Positions 53,998-60,148 of a stretch of DNA of 64,000 bases are shown here, piece after piece (position 1 is the first letter of the stretch; every line of letters starts with the position of its first letter). The position numbers and the translations under genes are program-made. Source of the DNA: Actinomycetota bacterium (lineage in GTDB: Bacteria; Actinomycetota; Coriobacteriia; Anaerosomatales; Anaerosomataceae); assembly GCA_009773565.1 (NCBI GenBank), contig WSXY01000002.1:292463-356462 (forward strand). Reading direction: 5' to 3'. The notes under the pieces were generated by a model, which saw only the letters and a program-made list of their open reading frames with translations, was not told the origin of the DNA and made no database searches.

Positions 53998-54672
53998 GTG
54001 AGCATCTTTGTCGCGCTTGCAGAGGTGTTCTCGCCCATTCGGTGTGCGGGGTGTGATCTACCGGGTGCAGTGCTCTGCCCTGCATGTGCCGGGGAGTTGC
54101 CGCTTATCGACGCGAGGTGTTCATGTCGGCGTTGCGGCGCGGATTGCGGCCGGCGCGAATGCGGCGAGTGTAGAGATCGCGACTTTGCGTTCACCCGAGC
54201 CGTGTGCGCGGGGCGACTTGAACCGCCATTGTCGCGATTGATCACGGTTCACAAGGATGCCGGTGAGCGCCGGTACGCAGCCGCCCTTGGCGAGTTGCTT
54301 CTGAGCGCGTGTGAGCCGTGGCGGGGGTGGCCTGACGCCGTGAGTGCCATCCCGCCGTCAAGGGAGGCCCTCGCTCGGCGTGGCTTCGATCACACCCGTG
54401 TGCTTGCGAACACGGTAGCCACAGGATTGGGGATCCCGGTCGTGTCATTGCTCGGGGTTGCGCGCCGGCAAGATCAGCGTGCGCTGACGCGGGAGCAGCG
54501 CTTCGCGAACATGCAGGGGTCGTTTCACCTGCAGCCCGGTGCACAGCCGCGAGGACGCATACTGCTGGTGGATGACGTATTCACGACCGGAGCAACGCTC
54601 GACGGAGCGGCGAGAGTGCTCCTGGCCGCAGGCGCGGATGAGGTCAGGGTTGCTGCTGTCGCTCGAGCTTGA
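53998..54672 (+). CDS. comF: ComF family phosphoribosyltransferase-like protein
   Basis: The 224-residue protein has an N-terminal zinc-finger-like cluster (CAGCDLPGAVLCPAC, then CSCRRCG and CGECRD). A phosphoribosyltransferase domain follows, with RRGFDHTRVLA and the PRPP loop ILLVDDVFTTGATL. ComFC proteins act in natural transformation. It commonly neighbours raiA/hpf; here raiA lies 5 kb away. Confidence 0.9.
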   Translation: MSIFVALAEVFSPIRCAGCDLPGAVLCPACAGELPLIDARCSCRRCGADCGRRECGECRDRDFAFTRAVCAGRLEPPLSRLITVHKDAGERRYAAALGELLLSACEPWRGWPDAVSAIPPSREALARRGFDHTRVLANTVATGLGIPVVSLLGVARRQDQRALTREQRFANMQGSFHLQPGAQPRGRILLVDDVFTTGATLDGAARVLLAAGADEVRVAAVARA

Positions 54673-54684
54673 AGAGGCCTCCGG

Positions 54685-55104
54685 CTATCGCGCTCTGCGT
54701 CGCAGGTTCCCGAGAAGCACGGTGCCGACGACGATGCTTGCGAGAGCAGCCCACGGTCCAAAACCCGATGCGCCGGCATTGCTCAAGGTCGAAACAAGCA
54801 CGATGCCGAGAACCGCTCCCGCGAGCGCACCGGCGTAGCCCTTTGCGAGCGAGTAATGCGACCGTCTTGAGAATCGGGCGAGAACCCGGGGGCCAAGCGG
54901 GGCACCTACGACGATGCCGATGAGGCCACCTGTAAGAAGCCGGGCGATGTCCTGGAGACCCTGCGTTCCGGAGATGTAGTCGAGTCCCCATCGGGCGGCG
55001 AGTCCAAAGACCACTGCAAGCGCCGCCCCCGAAAGAAGCGAAGCCGCCGCCTCAAGCACGTAGTCGAGAGCCGTCGATTCTAGTGGCTGTTCGTTGCCCG
55101 TCAT
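54685..55104 (-). CDS. Hypothetical membrane protein
   Basis: The 139-residue protein has about four helices (LLSGAALAVVFGLAARWG, DIARLLTGGLIGIVVGAPLG, GYAGALAGAVLGIVLVS, WAALASIVVGTVLLG). The start at 55104 follows GGAGG on the minus strand. The longer frame upstream runs through the RNA locus and is rejected. It is convergent with comF (12-base gap). No family recognised. Confidence 0.7.
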   Translation of the reverse strand: MTGNEQPLESTALDYVLEAAASLLSGAALAVVFGLAARWGLDYISGTQGLQDIARLLTGGLIGIVVGAPLGPRVLARFSRRSHYSLAKGYAGALAGAVLGIVLVSTLSNAGASGFGPWAALASIVVGTVLLGNLRRRAR

Positions 55105-55194: not shown

Positions 55195-55203
55195 TGCTAC
55201 ACT
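55195..55203 (+). promoter_or_regulatory. Extended -10 for the structured RNA
   Basis: TGCTACACT fits TGn plus TACACT. A start 7 bases on is 55210, the first base of the RNA's closing helix. Confidence 0.6.
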
Positions 55204-55209
55204 TCTCCA

Positions 55210-55459
55210 TGCTTCCATCCGGGTCTGTGGTTGCGGGCGCGCAAGCGCCTCAGTCCAAGGTAGACGCGGCCGAAAGGACCCACGTAAGCCGGCGGTTCGC
55301 CGTCGCGCGAGCATGGCGCGTCTTAGGGGTAAGTCGTACCGTCCGGTCCAACCATCCCGGTTGGCGGGCGAGAGGGCCGGTAGTGAGATAACATCAAGCG
55401 GAAGCTCCGGTACGCGAGTGTGGGGCCAAAGACCAGGTCAGCCGGATGGAAGCACTTTT
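55210..55459 (+). ncRNA. Structured RNA of about 250 nt, candidate raiA-motif RNA
   Basis: The ends pair perfectly over 13 bp (55210-55222 with 55442-55454), followed by CTTTT. Inside are several hairpins. 55236-55240/55245-55249 has a GCAA tetraloop. 55290-55294/55298-55302 is a 5-bp stem. 55348-55353/55359-55364 is enclosed by 55337-55344/55374-55382. 55262-55268/55317-55323 is a long-range stem. No convincing ORF fills it. Tetraloops, a multibranch layout and promoter match indicate a real RNA. It lacks RNase P, SRP and tmRNA signatures. The raiA RNA motif, known in actinobacteria near raiA and DNA-uptake genes, fits the position between comF and raiA; that identity is inference. Confidence 0.6.
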
Positions 55460-55486
55460 CGAAGTCTGAACGGAAGGACGCAGATC

Positions 55487-56329
55487 ATGCACTTGAGGCG
55501 GGTAGTAGCGTTAGTACTCAGCGCTGCGGTGCTGTTGTCTGTCGGAGGGTGCGGCGCCAAGAAACAGGCGACTCTCACACCGAAGATCGCCCCACCGGTG
55601 ATTGCCGCTGAAGGCGTCCTGCGTGCGGGCGTGGACCTCTCGTATCCGCCATTCGCCGGAGAGGCGGGCGGCAAGAAGGTCGGCATCGACGTTGATGTGG
55701 CCGCAGCCGTTGCCGAGCGCCTCGGTCTGCGTCTCGAGGTCGTGGACATCAAGTCTGCCGACGTTCCCGCGGCTCTGAAGGCGAAAACGATTGATATCGC
55801 GCTCGGCGCCGTACCGATCGCCGATGCGGTGCTCGCCGACGTCACCGTGGCGGGCTCGTACTTCACAGATGGTCCGGGTCTGTTCTCGATGGTTGCGAGC
55901 GGGGCTCCTGCGCCAACCATCAAGCAGGATGGACTCGCCAAACTCAGGGTCGGTGCGCAGCAGGGATCCGCCGTCTTCTGGGCTCTAGAGTCCGCATATG
56001 GCGAGGGTTTTGTCGCCGCGTCGCCGGCAGTTCGTGGGGCTTTTGAGGCGCTGAGTGCCGGGAGTCTGGACGTCGTTGCCGCCGATGCAGTCGTAGGTGC
56101 CTACCTGGCCCGCGACTTCCCGGGCGTGGCGTTCGTCGGGCAGTACGGCTCAGCCGAACCGCTCGGCGTCTTGGTGGCGAAGGATGACAGCGCCCTAGAG
56201 TCAGCGATTCGAGGAGTACTCGATGTGCTGTCTTCCGAAGGTGTGCTCGATGCGATTCGCACTAAGTGGGTAGGGGCGCTGCCGGTTCTCGAGGCAGAGG
56301 CATCCGGGGACACATCCACGACTCCGTAG
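55487..56329 (+). CDS. Amino-acid-type solute-binding lipoprotein, normal domain order
   Basis: The 280-residue protein has a lipoprotein signal (LLSVGGC, Cys22) and then the usual type II binding fold (AGVDLSYPPFAGE at about 47-60). The lobe-2 acidic residue is in VVAADAVVGAYL. The usual TxxR carboxylate-binding motif is replaced by PIADAVLADV (about 110-119), so a standard alpha-amino-acid ligand is doubtful. ATG 55487 follows GGAAGG. It lies directly after the structured RNA and ends in its own terminator. Confidence 0.85.
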   Translation: MHLRRVVALVLSAAVLLSVGGCGAKKQATLTPKIAPPVIAAEGVLRAGVDLSYPPFAGEAGGKKVGIDVDVAAAVAERLGLRLEVVDIKSADVPAALKAKTIDIALGAVPIADAVLADVTVAGSYFTDGPGLFSMVASGAPAPTIKQDGLAKLRVGAQQGSAVFWALESAYGEGFVAASPAVRGAFEALSAGSLDVVAADAVVGAYLARDFPGVAFVGQYGSAEPLGVLVAKDDSALESAIRGVLDVLSSEGVLDAIRTKWVGALPVLEAEASGDTSTTP

Positions 56330-56520: not shown

Positions 56521-57396
56521 ATGAGCAAGACCGGCAAGATTTTCGCGCTCCTCATGGTCTTCGCGCTCCTCGTCAGCGCACTTGCGCTCGGCGGTTGTGC
56601 GAAGAAGGACGAGGGAACAGGCACCACGCCGCCCCCGGCCGAGAAAGTCGGAATCAAGAGTGTTGACGACCTCAAGAAGGGCGACAAAGTCGCCGTTCAG
56701 TCCGGTACGACCGGTGAGGGTTGGGCGAAAGAGAATCTTGAGCCCAAGGGCATCGTTGTTGTTCCTTACGACGACGTGCTGCTTGCCTTCTCGGCCCTTC
56801 AGGCCGGCGACGTCCTCGGCGTCATCAACGACCTGCCGATTTCGCAGGACGTTGTGAAGGATCAGACCCGTGGTCTCGAGATCGTTCAGGAGATCACCAC
56901 CAACGAGGCGTACGGCTTCGCGTTCAGCAAGAAGAACACGGTTCTGCGCGACTCCGTTAACTGGGCGCTCGCGGAAGTCATCAAGGATGGTTCTTACAAC
57001 ACGATCTACGCCAAGTGGTTCGGTTCTGAGCCCATGTCAATGCCCAAGGCTGTCAGCGGCATCACCGCCAAGCCCGCGGGTGAGCTCAAGACTCTTACCG
57101 CCGGCAAGATCATCCTCGGCTCCGACACTGCCTACCCGCCGTTCGAGAACGTCGAGGGTGGAGCAACGGTCGGCTTTGACGTCGATCTCATGGCTGCAAT
57201 CGCGGCCAAGCTCGGTCTGACGTCTGAGTTCAAGAGCTACAAGTTCGACGCTCTCATCACCGGCGTTCAGGCCGGCAGCGAGTTCGACATGGTCGCATCT
57301 GCCATGACGATCACCGATGAGCGCAAGCAGTCGATCGACTTCTCGGATCCTTACATCAACTCGAACCAGTCACTTGCGGTCAAAAAGGCTCAGTAG
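56521..57396 (+). CDS. Circularly permuted amino-acid-binding lipoprotein
   Basis: The 291-residue protein has a lipoprotein signal (LALGGC, Cys26). Residues 43-168 match the second half of a HisJ/GlnH-type binding protein: DLKKGDKVAVQSGTTGEG, VINDLPIS and YGFAFSKKN, ending IYAKWFG. Residues 190-289 match the first half: ILGSDTAYPPFE, TVGFDVDLMAAIAAKLG, AMTITDERKQ and SIDFSDPY. The order is thus swapped, with a linker at 169-189. Ligand residues are kept (Thr63-64, Asp104, Tyr205, Arg268), so a functional amino-acid binder is likely. The ATG follows AAGGAGG. Confidence 0.92.
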   Translation: MSKTGKIFALLMVFALLVSALALGGCAKKDEGTGTTPPPAEKVGIKSVDDLKKGDKVAVQSGTTGEGWAKENLEPKGIVVVPYDDVLLAFSALQAGDVLGVINDLPISQDVVKDQTRGLEIVQEITTNEAYGFAFSKKNTVLRDSVNWALAEVIKDGSYNTIYAKWFGSEPMSMPKAVSGITAKPAGELKTLTAGKIILGSDTAYPPFENVEGGATVGFDVDLMAAIAAKLGLTSEFKSYKFDALITGVQAGSEFDMVASAMTITDERKQSIDFSDPYINSNQSLAVKKAQ

Positions 57397-57421
57397 CCTG
57401 ACTGTGTGACGTAGTATGCTA

Positions 57422-57448
57422 GGGGCCGGTGGCTGAGCCACCGGCCCT
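57422..57448 (+). promoter_or_regulatory. Intercistronic hairpin
   Basis: An 11-bp perfect stem (57423-57433 with 57437-57447, TGA loop) has no U run. It stands between the binding-protein and permease genes. Such hairpins often protect the upstream mRNA and lower permease output. Confidence 0.6.
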
Positions 57449-57476
57449 GATGCATTCGCTCTTCCGAGGAGGCGGC

Positions 57477-58766
57477 GTGAACTCTAAGCTTCGGAATGCT
57501 TTGTGGTATGCGGCACTCGCGATTGCCGGCGTTGTCATCGGCGCGCTGCTGCTTACCATGGTCGGGCCGGGGCGTGTCCTCTATAAGGACCCCCCACGAC
57601 GCGGAACGACCGATATCGTTGATGCCGTCTACCTCATCTCGCCCACGCGAGACACCCTTACGATCGGCAGCCGACAGGCCGACATCGTGCCCCGGAAGGC
57701 TGTCCTCGCAGACAATCTCGCCGTCACGCTGACGCGCACGCCTGCGGGCGGAGGAATGGGCAAGAGCACCTGGGCTGTCGCCGCCGAGGAAACGAGTCCG
57801 ACACCGGTGCTCCTGAACGGTGCGGTGCCCGCCGCCGGAGCCACGCTGAAAAGCGGCGATGTCCTCACCGTAGGCGGCCTCAAGATGACGTTCGATGGCG
57901 GCCGTCGGGGGCTTCTCGGCGCTGTCGACTGGTGGGAGGCGGGTAAGGTTTCCCACCTCTTCGCTTCACCACAGGTCATAGCTGAGGCCTTCCCGATCCT
58001 TCTCGCGGCGTATCCGATCTCTCTTGTCGCCGTATTCCTCTCATTCATTCTCGCGATTCCGGGCGGACTCGCCCTGGCGTTCATGAAGATGGCCAAGTCG
58101 CGCTGGTTCCGCTTTCCGGCGACAGCCTACGTGGACTTCGTCCGAGGCACGCCCATCTTCCTGCAGATTCTCCTGGTGTTCTTCGGCCTGCCGCTCATGC
58201 CGCCGTGGCAGGCGCTTGTTAGTGCGTTCCCGCAGATCAACGACGCGGGCCTGCTAGGGGTTTCTAACTCCATGTGGCTGCGAGTACTCGTCGTTCTTGC
58301 CTTCAACTCGGCAGCGTACATGGCCGAGATCTTCCGTGCCGGCATCCAGTCGATCAACAAGGGGCAGATGGAGGCCGCGCGATCGCTTGGCATGAGCACT
58401 GCGGCCGCGATGGCGTTCATCATCATCCCGCAGACCGTGCGCCGGATTCTGCCGACGATGATGTCCGAGTTCATCTTGCTCTTCAAAGACACGTCGCTCT
58501 TCGCGGCTGTCGGACTACCCGAGATCGTCATGCGTGCGAGAGAGGTCGCTTCGACCCGGCTCAACGTTTCAGGATACTTGCTCGCAGCGGTCTTCTATCT
58601 GGTCATCACGATTCCGCTAGGTCGCTTCGTCCAGCAACTGGAGAACCGGCTTGCGGCATCTGAGGGTGGTGGAGCGGCGACGTTCCACAAGAGCACCGAG
58701 GACAATCTCGAGAACGCCGCGAAGATCAAACAGGGCCTGGCAGCTCCGACCGCGGATCGGGTGTGA
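57477..58766 (+). CDS. Amino-acid ABC transporter permease with inserted FHA-like domain
   Basis: The 429-residue protein has membrane helix 1 at about 8-29. A soluble region at about 45-140 reads like an FHA domain ([11 protein letters not shown], then LLNG, then [16 protein letters not shown]). The HisM/GlnP-type permease core starts at about 165, with the EAA loop [20 protein letters not shown] (299-318). By topology the extra domain should face outside. Key FHA phosphate-binding residues look degenerate. GTG 57477 follows GAGGAGG. A 45-residue charged tail ends the protein. Confidence 0.9.
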
Positions 58767-59518
58767 TGATGATGACTTCCAACGGAAGCGAGCCGATCGT
58801 CCGCCTTCGGGGCCTCAAGAAGAACTTCGGCGAGCTTGAGGTGCTTAAGGGCGTCGACATGGACGTCAAGAAGGGCGAGGTCGTCGTCATTCTCGGTCCC
58901 TCGGGATCGGGCAAGTCGACGCTCCTGCGCTGCGTGAACCGGCTTGAAGAGCCGACGGGCGGAGAGATCTGGTTCGAGGACGTACAGGTCAACTCGCCCA
59001 AGACCAACATCAACGAGGTGCGCGAGAAGATCGGGATGGTCTTTCAGTCCTTCAACCTCTTCCCGCATCTGACCGCCAAGGGCAACGTCATGCTCGCCCA
59101 GCGCAAGGTTCTGAAGCGTTCCAAGGATGAGGCGGATCGCGTCGCGATCGAGCAACTTGAGCGCGTCGGCCTTGGTGACCGCGTCGACTACTATCCCGCG
59201 CAGCTGTCCGGTGGCCAGCAGCAACGTGTGGCAATCGCGCGCGCACTTGCGATGGACCCGCATGTCATGCTCTTTGACGAGGTCACGTCGGCGCTCGATC
59301 CCGAACTCGTTCGAGGCGTACTCGACGTCATGAAGCAGTTGGCGCTCGCCGGCATGACGATGCTCGTCGTGACGCACGAGATGGGCTTCGCGCGTGAGGT
59401 GGCAAGCCGCGCCGTCTTCATGGATGGCGGCGTTATTGTCGAGGAAGGCACGCCGGAGCAGGTCTTCGATCACCCGCGCAATGAGCGCACCAAAGACTTC
59501 CTCGGGCACATCAGTTAG
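58766..59518 (+). CDS. Amino-acid ABC transporter ATP-binding protein (GlnQ type)
   Basis: The protein of about 250 residues has Walker [10 protein letters not shown], the Q-loop [13 protein letters not shown], signature [15 protein letters not shown], Walker [13 protein letters not shown] and the switch His in VVTHEMG. Four start codons follow each other (GTG 58763, then ATG 58766, 58769 and 58772). The ATG at 58766 overlaps the permease stop (TGATG). Confidence 0.95.
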
Positions 59519-59608: not shown

Positions 59609-60148
59609 ATGAAGATGATCATCAAGGGAAGGCACATGGATGTCACCCCTGCCATTCGTGAGTATGCAGAGGAGAAGATCGGTCGAATCGCCAAGGTTCT
59701 CGACAGCATGATCATGAGTGCCGAGGTGGAGCTGTTCACGGAGCGCAATCCCTCGATCGAAAACGGACAGGTCGCGGAAGTCACGGTCTACACGAAGGGG
59801 CACGTGATTCGTGCCAAAGAGGCATCGTCGGATATGTATGCGGCGATCGACCTCGTTTCGGACAAGCTTGAGCGGCAGGTCAAGAAGTACAAGACGAAGA
59901 TCATCGACCGTCACAAGGTTGCGCCCGTGTTGGTGCCGGCTGAGCCGCTCGTTCCCGAGAAGTCTGATGAGCGCGTTATCGTGAAGACCAAGATCCTTGA
60001 GGTCAAGCCGATGTCGCCGGAAGAAGCGATTCTGCAGCTGGAGTTGCTCGGGCACGATTTCTTCGTATTCTCGTCTGCTGAGACTGAAGAGATCAGCGTT
60101 CTCTACCGCCGAAACGATGGAGACTACGGACTGATCGAGCCGCGCTAG
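59609..60148 (+). CDS. hpf: Ribosome hibernation-promoting factor, long form
   Basis: The 179-residue protein has an N-terminal S30AE domain (MIIKGRHMDVTPAIREYAEE). A linker and the C-terminal dimerisation domain (KPMSPEEAILQLELLGHDFF) follow. Long HPF forms 100S ribosome dimers in stationary phase. The ATG follows GTAGGAGG. Confidence 0.95.
   Translation: MKMIIKGRHMDVTPAIREYAEEKIGRIAKVLDSMIMSAEVELFTERNPSIENGQVAEVTVYTKGHVIRAKEASSDMYAAIDLVSDKLERQVKKYKTKIIDRHKVAPVLVPAEPLVPEKSDERVIVKTKILEVKPMSPEEAILQLELLGHDFFVFSSAETEEISVLYRRNDGDYGLIEPR

Follow-up and report, generated by a model that had tools for sequence, protein, structure and literature searches.

A raiA (ModT) RNA held closely ahead of a solute-binding lipoprotein gene in Coriobacteriia

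We analyzed a window of 64,000 nucleotides (64 kb) from an Actinomycetota bacterium of the class Coriobacteriia and found at 55210-55454 (+) a genuine raiA (ModT) RNA, an identification that we hold to be practically certain. The window copy has the pseudoknotted fold of the family, with covariation, and a conserved extended -10 promoter stands at the proper distance from it. Across the class, the position of the RNA is fixed closely ahead of a gene for a solute-binding lipoprotein, with no terminator between them, a new context for this family. The raiA RNA is widespread in bacteria, and its three-dimensional structure has been solved while its biochemical role has not. The structures are described in PMC11751092 and PMC12286853.

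Identity of the RNA

We searched the full 64-kb window against the covariance models of Rfam 15. Positions 55214-55450 (+) matched raiA (RF03072) at 159.6 bits (E 4.8e-40), above the curated gathering threshold of 101.3 bits and over the whole model (1-209 of 209). This was the sole Rfam match in the entire window, with no match to RNase P, SRP, tmRNA or other riboswitches, and the host genome holds one copy of the RNA. As is characteristic of the family, which is found near comFC and/or raiA/hpf, comF lies 0.5 kb upstream and hpf 4.2 kb downstream.

An initial annotation of this DNA had proposed a structured RNA of about 250 nt at 55195-55459, which proves correct within a few bases, and had described it as lacking the signatures of RNase P, SRP, tmRNA and common riboswitches, in agreement with the Rfam search. 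Its guess of raiA, made from the position between comF and hpf alone, is borne out by the RF03072 match, by all helices and both pseudoknots, and by the RNA's presence in 89 of 99 relatives; the covariance-model search it had suggested gave a clear raiA match and none to another RNA family. The identity rests on the model match and on covariation, not on single-sequence thermodynamics.

Fold and covariation

Single-sequence folding was rejected as proof of structure, the minimum free energy being not unusual for the composition (z -1.05, not significant; 36 of 200 shuffles fold equally well), and covariation was used instead. The published secondary structure (P1-P8, with seven pairs in pk-1 and two in pk-2; PMC11751092) was mapped by hand via the Rfam consensus numbering onto the window copy. 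Pairing was then scored in 57 distinct relatives, aligned with MAFFT and fitted to no structure. In this alignment 93.1% of cells are paired, where column shuffles give 83.5% and slid controls 32-43%; this measure would be biased when taken alone because the structure mapping leans on the window sequence. Double changes, which are unbiased, occur on both sides of 43 of the 72 pairs, the result of a comparison among relatives that the initial annotation had also called for; doubly changed cells number 442 against 140 in shuffles, and three pairs of pk-1 are among those with double changes. The covariation score is 0.354, against 0.174 in shuffles and at most 0.117 in slid controls. Unaided, RNAalifold recovers P1, P2, P3, P6, P7 and the base of P8.

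In the window copy, standard pairs stand at 72 of 72 mapped positions, and all helices of the published cryo-EM structure can form along with both pseudoknots. The RNA is bounded by the closing helix P1, 13 bp between TGCTTCCATCCGG (55210-55222) and CCGGATGGAAGCA (55442-55454), with 12 pairs of helix 1 changed on both sides. The 5' strands of P1b and P1c (55225-55232; helices 1-2) pair with 55439-55441 and 55431-55435, P1c being 98.6% paired in relatives. P2, optional in the family, is a GGCGC-GCAA-GCGCC hairpin (55236-55249) in which five of five pairs covary. The P3a/P3b hairpin (55253-55279) is 99-100% paired, and its loop provides the 5' half of pk-1, AGACGCG (55262-55268), which forms seven Watson-Crick pairs out of seven with CGCGTCT in the pk-loop (55317-55323; 96.2% of cells paired). 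The 5' strand of P4, CCAC (55280-55283), pairs with 55420-55423; this helix is invariant in the 57 sequences and therefore uninformative for covariation. P5 (55288-55308), a hairpin with a UUCG loop, has eight pairs in the window copy and 65.6% of cells paired in an alignment that is ragged there, and pk-2 joins UG (55314-55315) to CA (55427-55428; 94.7% of cells paired). The 5' strand of P6, CGTAC (55335-55339), pairs with 55410-55414 in a helix that is 100% paired and has three covarying pairs; it is followed by P7 (55340-55370; 98.6% paired), with a variable apical extension, and by P8 (55374-55407), with an internal GUA/GAA loop that is E-loop-like (base 97.8% and upper part 93.8% paired). 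Every pair of P3, P4 and the P1 clamp with its internal loop is thus present, with 93.6-100% of cells paired in relatives, as is the P6-P7-P8 domain of variant 2, whose base helices are paired in 98-100% of cells.

The Clostridium acetobutylicum raiA RNA of the cryo-EM structures 9CXF and 9ELY is likewise of variant 2 (P6-P7-P8), with a 7-bp pk-1 and a 2-bp pk-2; the window copy differs from it by P2 inserted at the J1c-3a junction, which has G-C-G instead of G20-A21-A22, and by a shorter P8 tip. With Clostridioides difficile ModT it shares a whole-length RF03072 match, P1, P3-P8, pk-1, pk-2, the conserved unpaired bases, comF upstream and hpf nearby. Unlike ModT, it has the optional P2 and an extended P7, is followed by SBP1 rather than hpf, has no intrinsic terminator, and comes from a class whose tested genomes lack Spo0A. 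OLE, ROOL and GOLLD resemble raiA as large structured bacterial RNAs with no gene-specific cis role known, but they are separate families, and raiA is a monomer by cryo-EM whereas those are multimers (PMC12286853).

Promoter

An extended -10 promoter element, TGCTACACT (TGcTACACT; 55195-55203, +), is recognized by its sequence and its recurrence across the loci of the class. It lies about 6-7 nt 5' of the closing helix in the window copy and in most relatives, and the predicted +1, at about 55210-55211, is the first base of that helix; the initial annotation had likewise seen a 13-bp helix beginning at the start predicted from an extended -10. TGNTANNNT ends 5-7 nt 5' of P1 in 75 of 90 loci, where 0.2 would be expected from shuffles. 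At several loci (L092, L093, L095 and others), the comF stop codon TAG falls inside the extended -10 of the RNA (TGGTAGAAT), so that the 3' end of comF overlaps with the promoter of the RNA.

Distribution and gene order in the class

Of 99 relatives in the class, 89 had a match above the cut-off; in the phylum, 76 of 198 genomes had a match at E <= 0.001, 74 of them above the cut-off. The 10 relatives with no raiA match still had none under laxer filters. Six of these were checked further: in three (G025, G062 and G046), SBP1 stands at or near a contig start, likely reflecting an assembly gap instead of true absence, as though the contig had broken inside the RNA. G038, which is 98% complete, lacks a comF match, its SBP match is distant, and the RNA may be truly absent from it. 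One assembly (G066, 5% estimated contamination) has two distinct raiA copies on two contigs (L035 and L045), which probably represent two organisms. The loci share descent, so locus counts are not counts of independent events.

In the window, the RNA is preceded by a gene for a comF(C)-type phosphoribosyltransferase (53998-54672, +; PF00156 and synteny). It is followed by a Shine-Dalgarno sequence, GGAAGG (55472-55477, +), and by SBP1 (55487-56329, +), encoding a lipoprotein solute-binding protein of the SBP_bac_3 type (PF00497, E 6.4e-19; lipobox) and starting 33 nt past the raiA helix as counted to 55453. SBP2, the permease and the ATPase of an amino-acid-type ABC transporter follow (56521-59518, +; PF00497, PF00528 and PF00005), and then hpf, for a RaiA/HPF ribosome hibernation factor (59609-60148, +; PF02482 and PF16321). 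The comF-hpf setting of the initial annotation stands insofar as comF is upstream and hpf near, but the next gene is that of the SBP_bac_3 lipoprotein and not hpf, which is 4.2 kb off.

Three other features of this region were observed. SBP2 (56521-57396, +) looks circularly permuted, with the SBP_bac_3 C-lobe (model 140-258) preceding the N-lobe (36-126) in one open reading frame, a lobe order common to 18 of 68 SBP2 homologues. The permease (57429-58766, +) has about 200 residues with no Pfam match ahead of BPD_transp_1, parts of which appear FHA-like by eye. Between comF and the RNA, an open reading frame on the minus strand (54685-55104) has no Pfam match and is 52-57% conserved in G008, G015, G023 and G026.

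The window's order, comF - RNA - SBP1 - (SBP2, permease, ATPase) - hpf, is found across loci of the class, with a shorter comF - RNA - SBP1 - hpf order of the Atopobium/Olsenella type. The next gene is of the SBP type (SBP_bac_3) in 87 of 90 Coriobacteriia loci: by a simple ORF/SD rule, which may misplace starts, 80 are SBP1-like, 7 SBP2-like and 1 is hpf, the remaining 2 being neither. Each of the 54 SBP proteins chosen as representatives has a PF00497 match, and a simple pattern detects a lipobox in 76 of the 90 next-gene products. The SBP start lies at most 50 nt from the raiA helix in 75 of the 90 loci, with a modal gap of 28-29 nt; in window coordinates, these gaps are measured from 55453, which leaves the helix one pair shorter than its full 13 bp.

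Two scans found no intrinsic terminator downstream of P1 in the window, where about 33 nt separate the RNA from SBP1, and no sigma-70-like plus-strand promoter was found between RNA and gene. Terminator-like hairpins between RNA and gene occur at 4 of 90 Coriobacteriia loci; among the matches listed, they number 0 of 27 in named Coriobacteriia and 24 of 63 in loci grouped as "other", group sizes that do not stand for frequencies. Because the SBP gene begins within 50 nt and terminators are rare, the raiA RNA is probably the 5' part of the SBP1 mRNA, and we consider it quite likely that the two are on the same transcript.

Other lineages carry different genes after the RNA. A zf_Tbcl zinc-binding gene follows it at no fewer than (at least) 29 Clostridia loci, 26 of the 29 listed lying within 50 nt and 3 having a terminator-like hairpin; at L115, L120, L146 and the 26 other listed loci, the RNA mostly lies 28-44 nt before the gene for this small treble-clef zinc protein (PF13451 plus PF23477), so that the close and mostly terminator-free arrangement is seen in a second lineage. 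In several other Actinomycetota, which show this close arrangement too, the gene is hpf, at a gap of 32-47 nt, and in Veillonella it is a separate amino-acid ABC operon behind a terminator. A clear hairpin plus U-run stands 17-50 nt past P1 in several clostridia and in Veillonella.

Function

C. difficile ModT is abundant, stable and trans-acting, and cells that lose it leave growth later, sporulate less and have more c-di-GMP (PMC11706538). Probing revealed protein-dependent changes that suggest a bound protein, ModT was complemented in trans in two clostridia, and raiA orthologs were interchangeable (PMC11706538). The initial annotation called the function of raiA unsettled, which still holds for its activity, but there is now this clostridial literature on trans action, growth transition, sporulation and c-di-GMP (PMC11706538).

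Spo0A was found in 0 of 25 RNA-bearing genomes of the class that were tested, and 7 of the 25 had no GGDEF match, the window's own genome having 10. Sporulation and c-di-GMP roles therefore cannot be the general function of the RNA, which leads us to reject c-di-GMP as a general target, and the reported clostridial phenotypes must lie downstream of something more basic. The ribosome hibernation factor was considered as a constant partner and set aside: hpf is present in 24 of the 25 RNA-bearing genomes, a co-occurrence that is uninformative because hpf is near-universal in controls too.

To our knowledge, no actinobacterial copy of raiA has been tested experimentally, since Acetohalobium arabaticum belongs to the Bacillota. 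It is the source of the "Actinomycetota" ortholog of PMC11706538 and is placed in the Bacillota by NCBI taxonomy.

We propose that a housekeeping-type promoter would produce one transcript, with the raiA RNA first and SBP1 after it. Held in compact form by the P1 clamp, pk-1 and pk-2, the RNA would be spared by nucleases or cut free, and the freed RNA, stable and probably protein-bound, would accumulate and act in trans, timing exit from growth as reported for clostridial ModT. SBP1 would be expressed by read-through from the raiA promoter. We judge this reading as a whole, in which a structured RNA acts in trans after release from a transcript shared with SBP1, to be probable, and on the narrower question of whether the RNA acts mainly in trans we lean toward that view. 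Release from a shared transcript with action in trans would explain the trans data, the absence of a terminator and the changing neighbors; downstream genes that differ (SBP, zf_Tbcl, hpf) and are often equally close argue against a single cis target under the control of the RNA. The spacing to SBP1, which is nearly constant, could count against release as a sign of cis control.

With such control, the RNA of the Coriobacteriia would be a cis-acting leader too, its fold sensing a metabolite or growth signal and setting how the SBP1 mRNA is translated or elongated. RF03072 has the Rfam type "Cis-reg; riboswitch", which is consistent with a leader, as are the short modal gap and the missing terminator. 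Accessibility of the Shine-Dalgarno sequence is 0.43 compared with 0.48 with shuffled spacers (lower in 43 of 67), and complementarity between the P1 5' strand and the Shine-Dalgarno region is 5.9 compared with 5.4, both small differences that are uncorrected for the base composition of P1. Against this, the spacer conserves no base except the Shine-Dalgarno sequence across the 90 loci and so appears to have no conserved expression platform; a search there for a conserved anti-SD or terminator switch showed nothing beyond that sequence and marginal occlusion of it. Trans complementation in two clostridia (PMC11706538) also speaks against a leader, as does the lack of the consistent downstream regulon of a cis riboswitch, the gene being SBP, zf_Tbcl, hpf or an ABC operon depending on lineage. 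We regard a class-specific leader as unlikely.

It is also rather improbable, in our assessment, that the RNA is a separate transcript ending at P1 through Rho or another terminator, with SBP1 expressed by, for example, read-through from comF. Clostridial and Veillonella copies do carry their own intrinsic terminators 20-50 nt past P1, including that 3' of C. difficile ModT (PMC11706538), but the RNA-SBP1 spacer has none, and only four U follow the P1 helix in the window, with no U-run conserved in the class. The idea that the structure arose by chance from GC-rich intergenic sequence, with which a folding energy no better than that of shuffles would agree, is refuted by the RF03072 match (E 4.8e-40), by covariation with its slide controls and by conservation of the RNA across the class, and its probability is negligible.

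Release from a shared transcript remains our preferred reading. A more speculative one, which we consider doubtful, is that the Coriobacteriia raiA is a dual RNA, both an obligatory 5' leader through which expression of the SBP lipoprotein gene is coupled with the RNA's state and, once released, a trans regulator of the growth transition; if true, nutrient capture would be tied to growth arrest through one transcript.

The raiA/ModT RNA is among the few widespread RNAs of solved structure that lack a known biochemical role. Coriobacteriia offer a natural experiment, with RNA-bearing genomes that have no Spo0A and some that have no GGDEF match at all, from which it follows that neither sporulation nor c-di-GMP control as such can be the basic job of raiA. 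Its tie to an amino-acid-type binding protein, with no terminator between, leads to specific predictions on RNA processing and effects in cis, for which the transcriptomes of cultured Coriobacteriia can be read.
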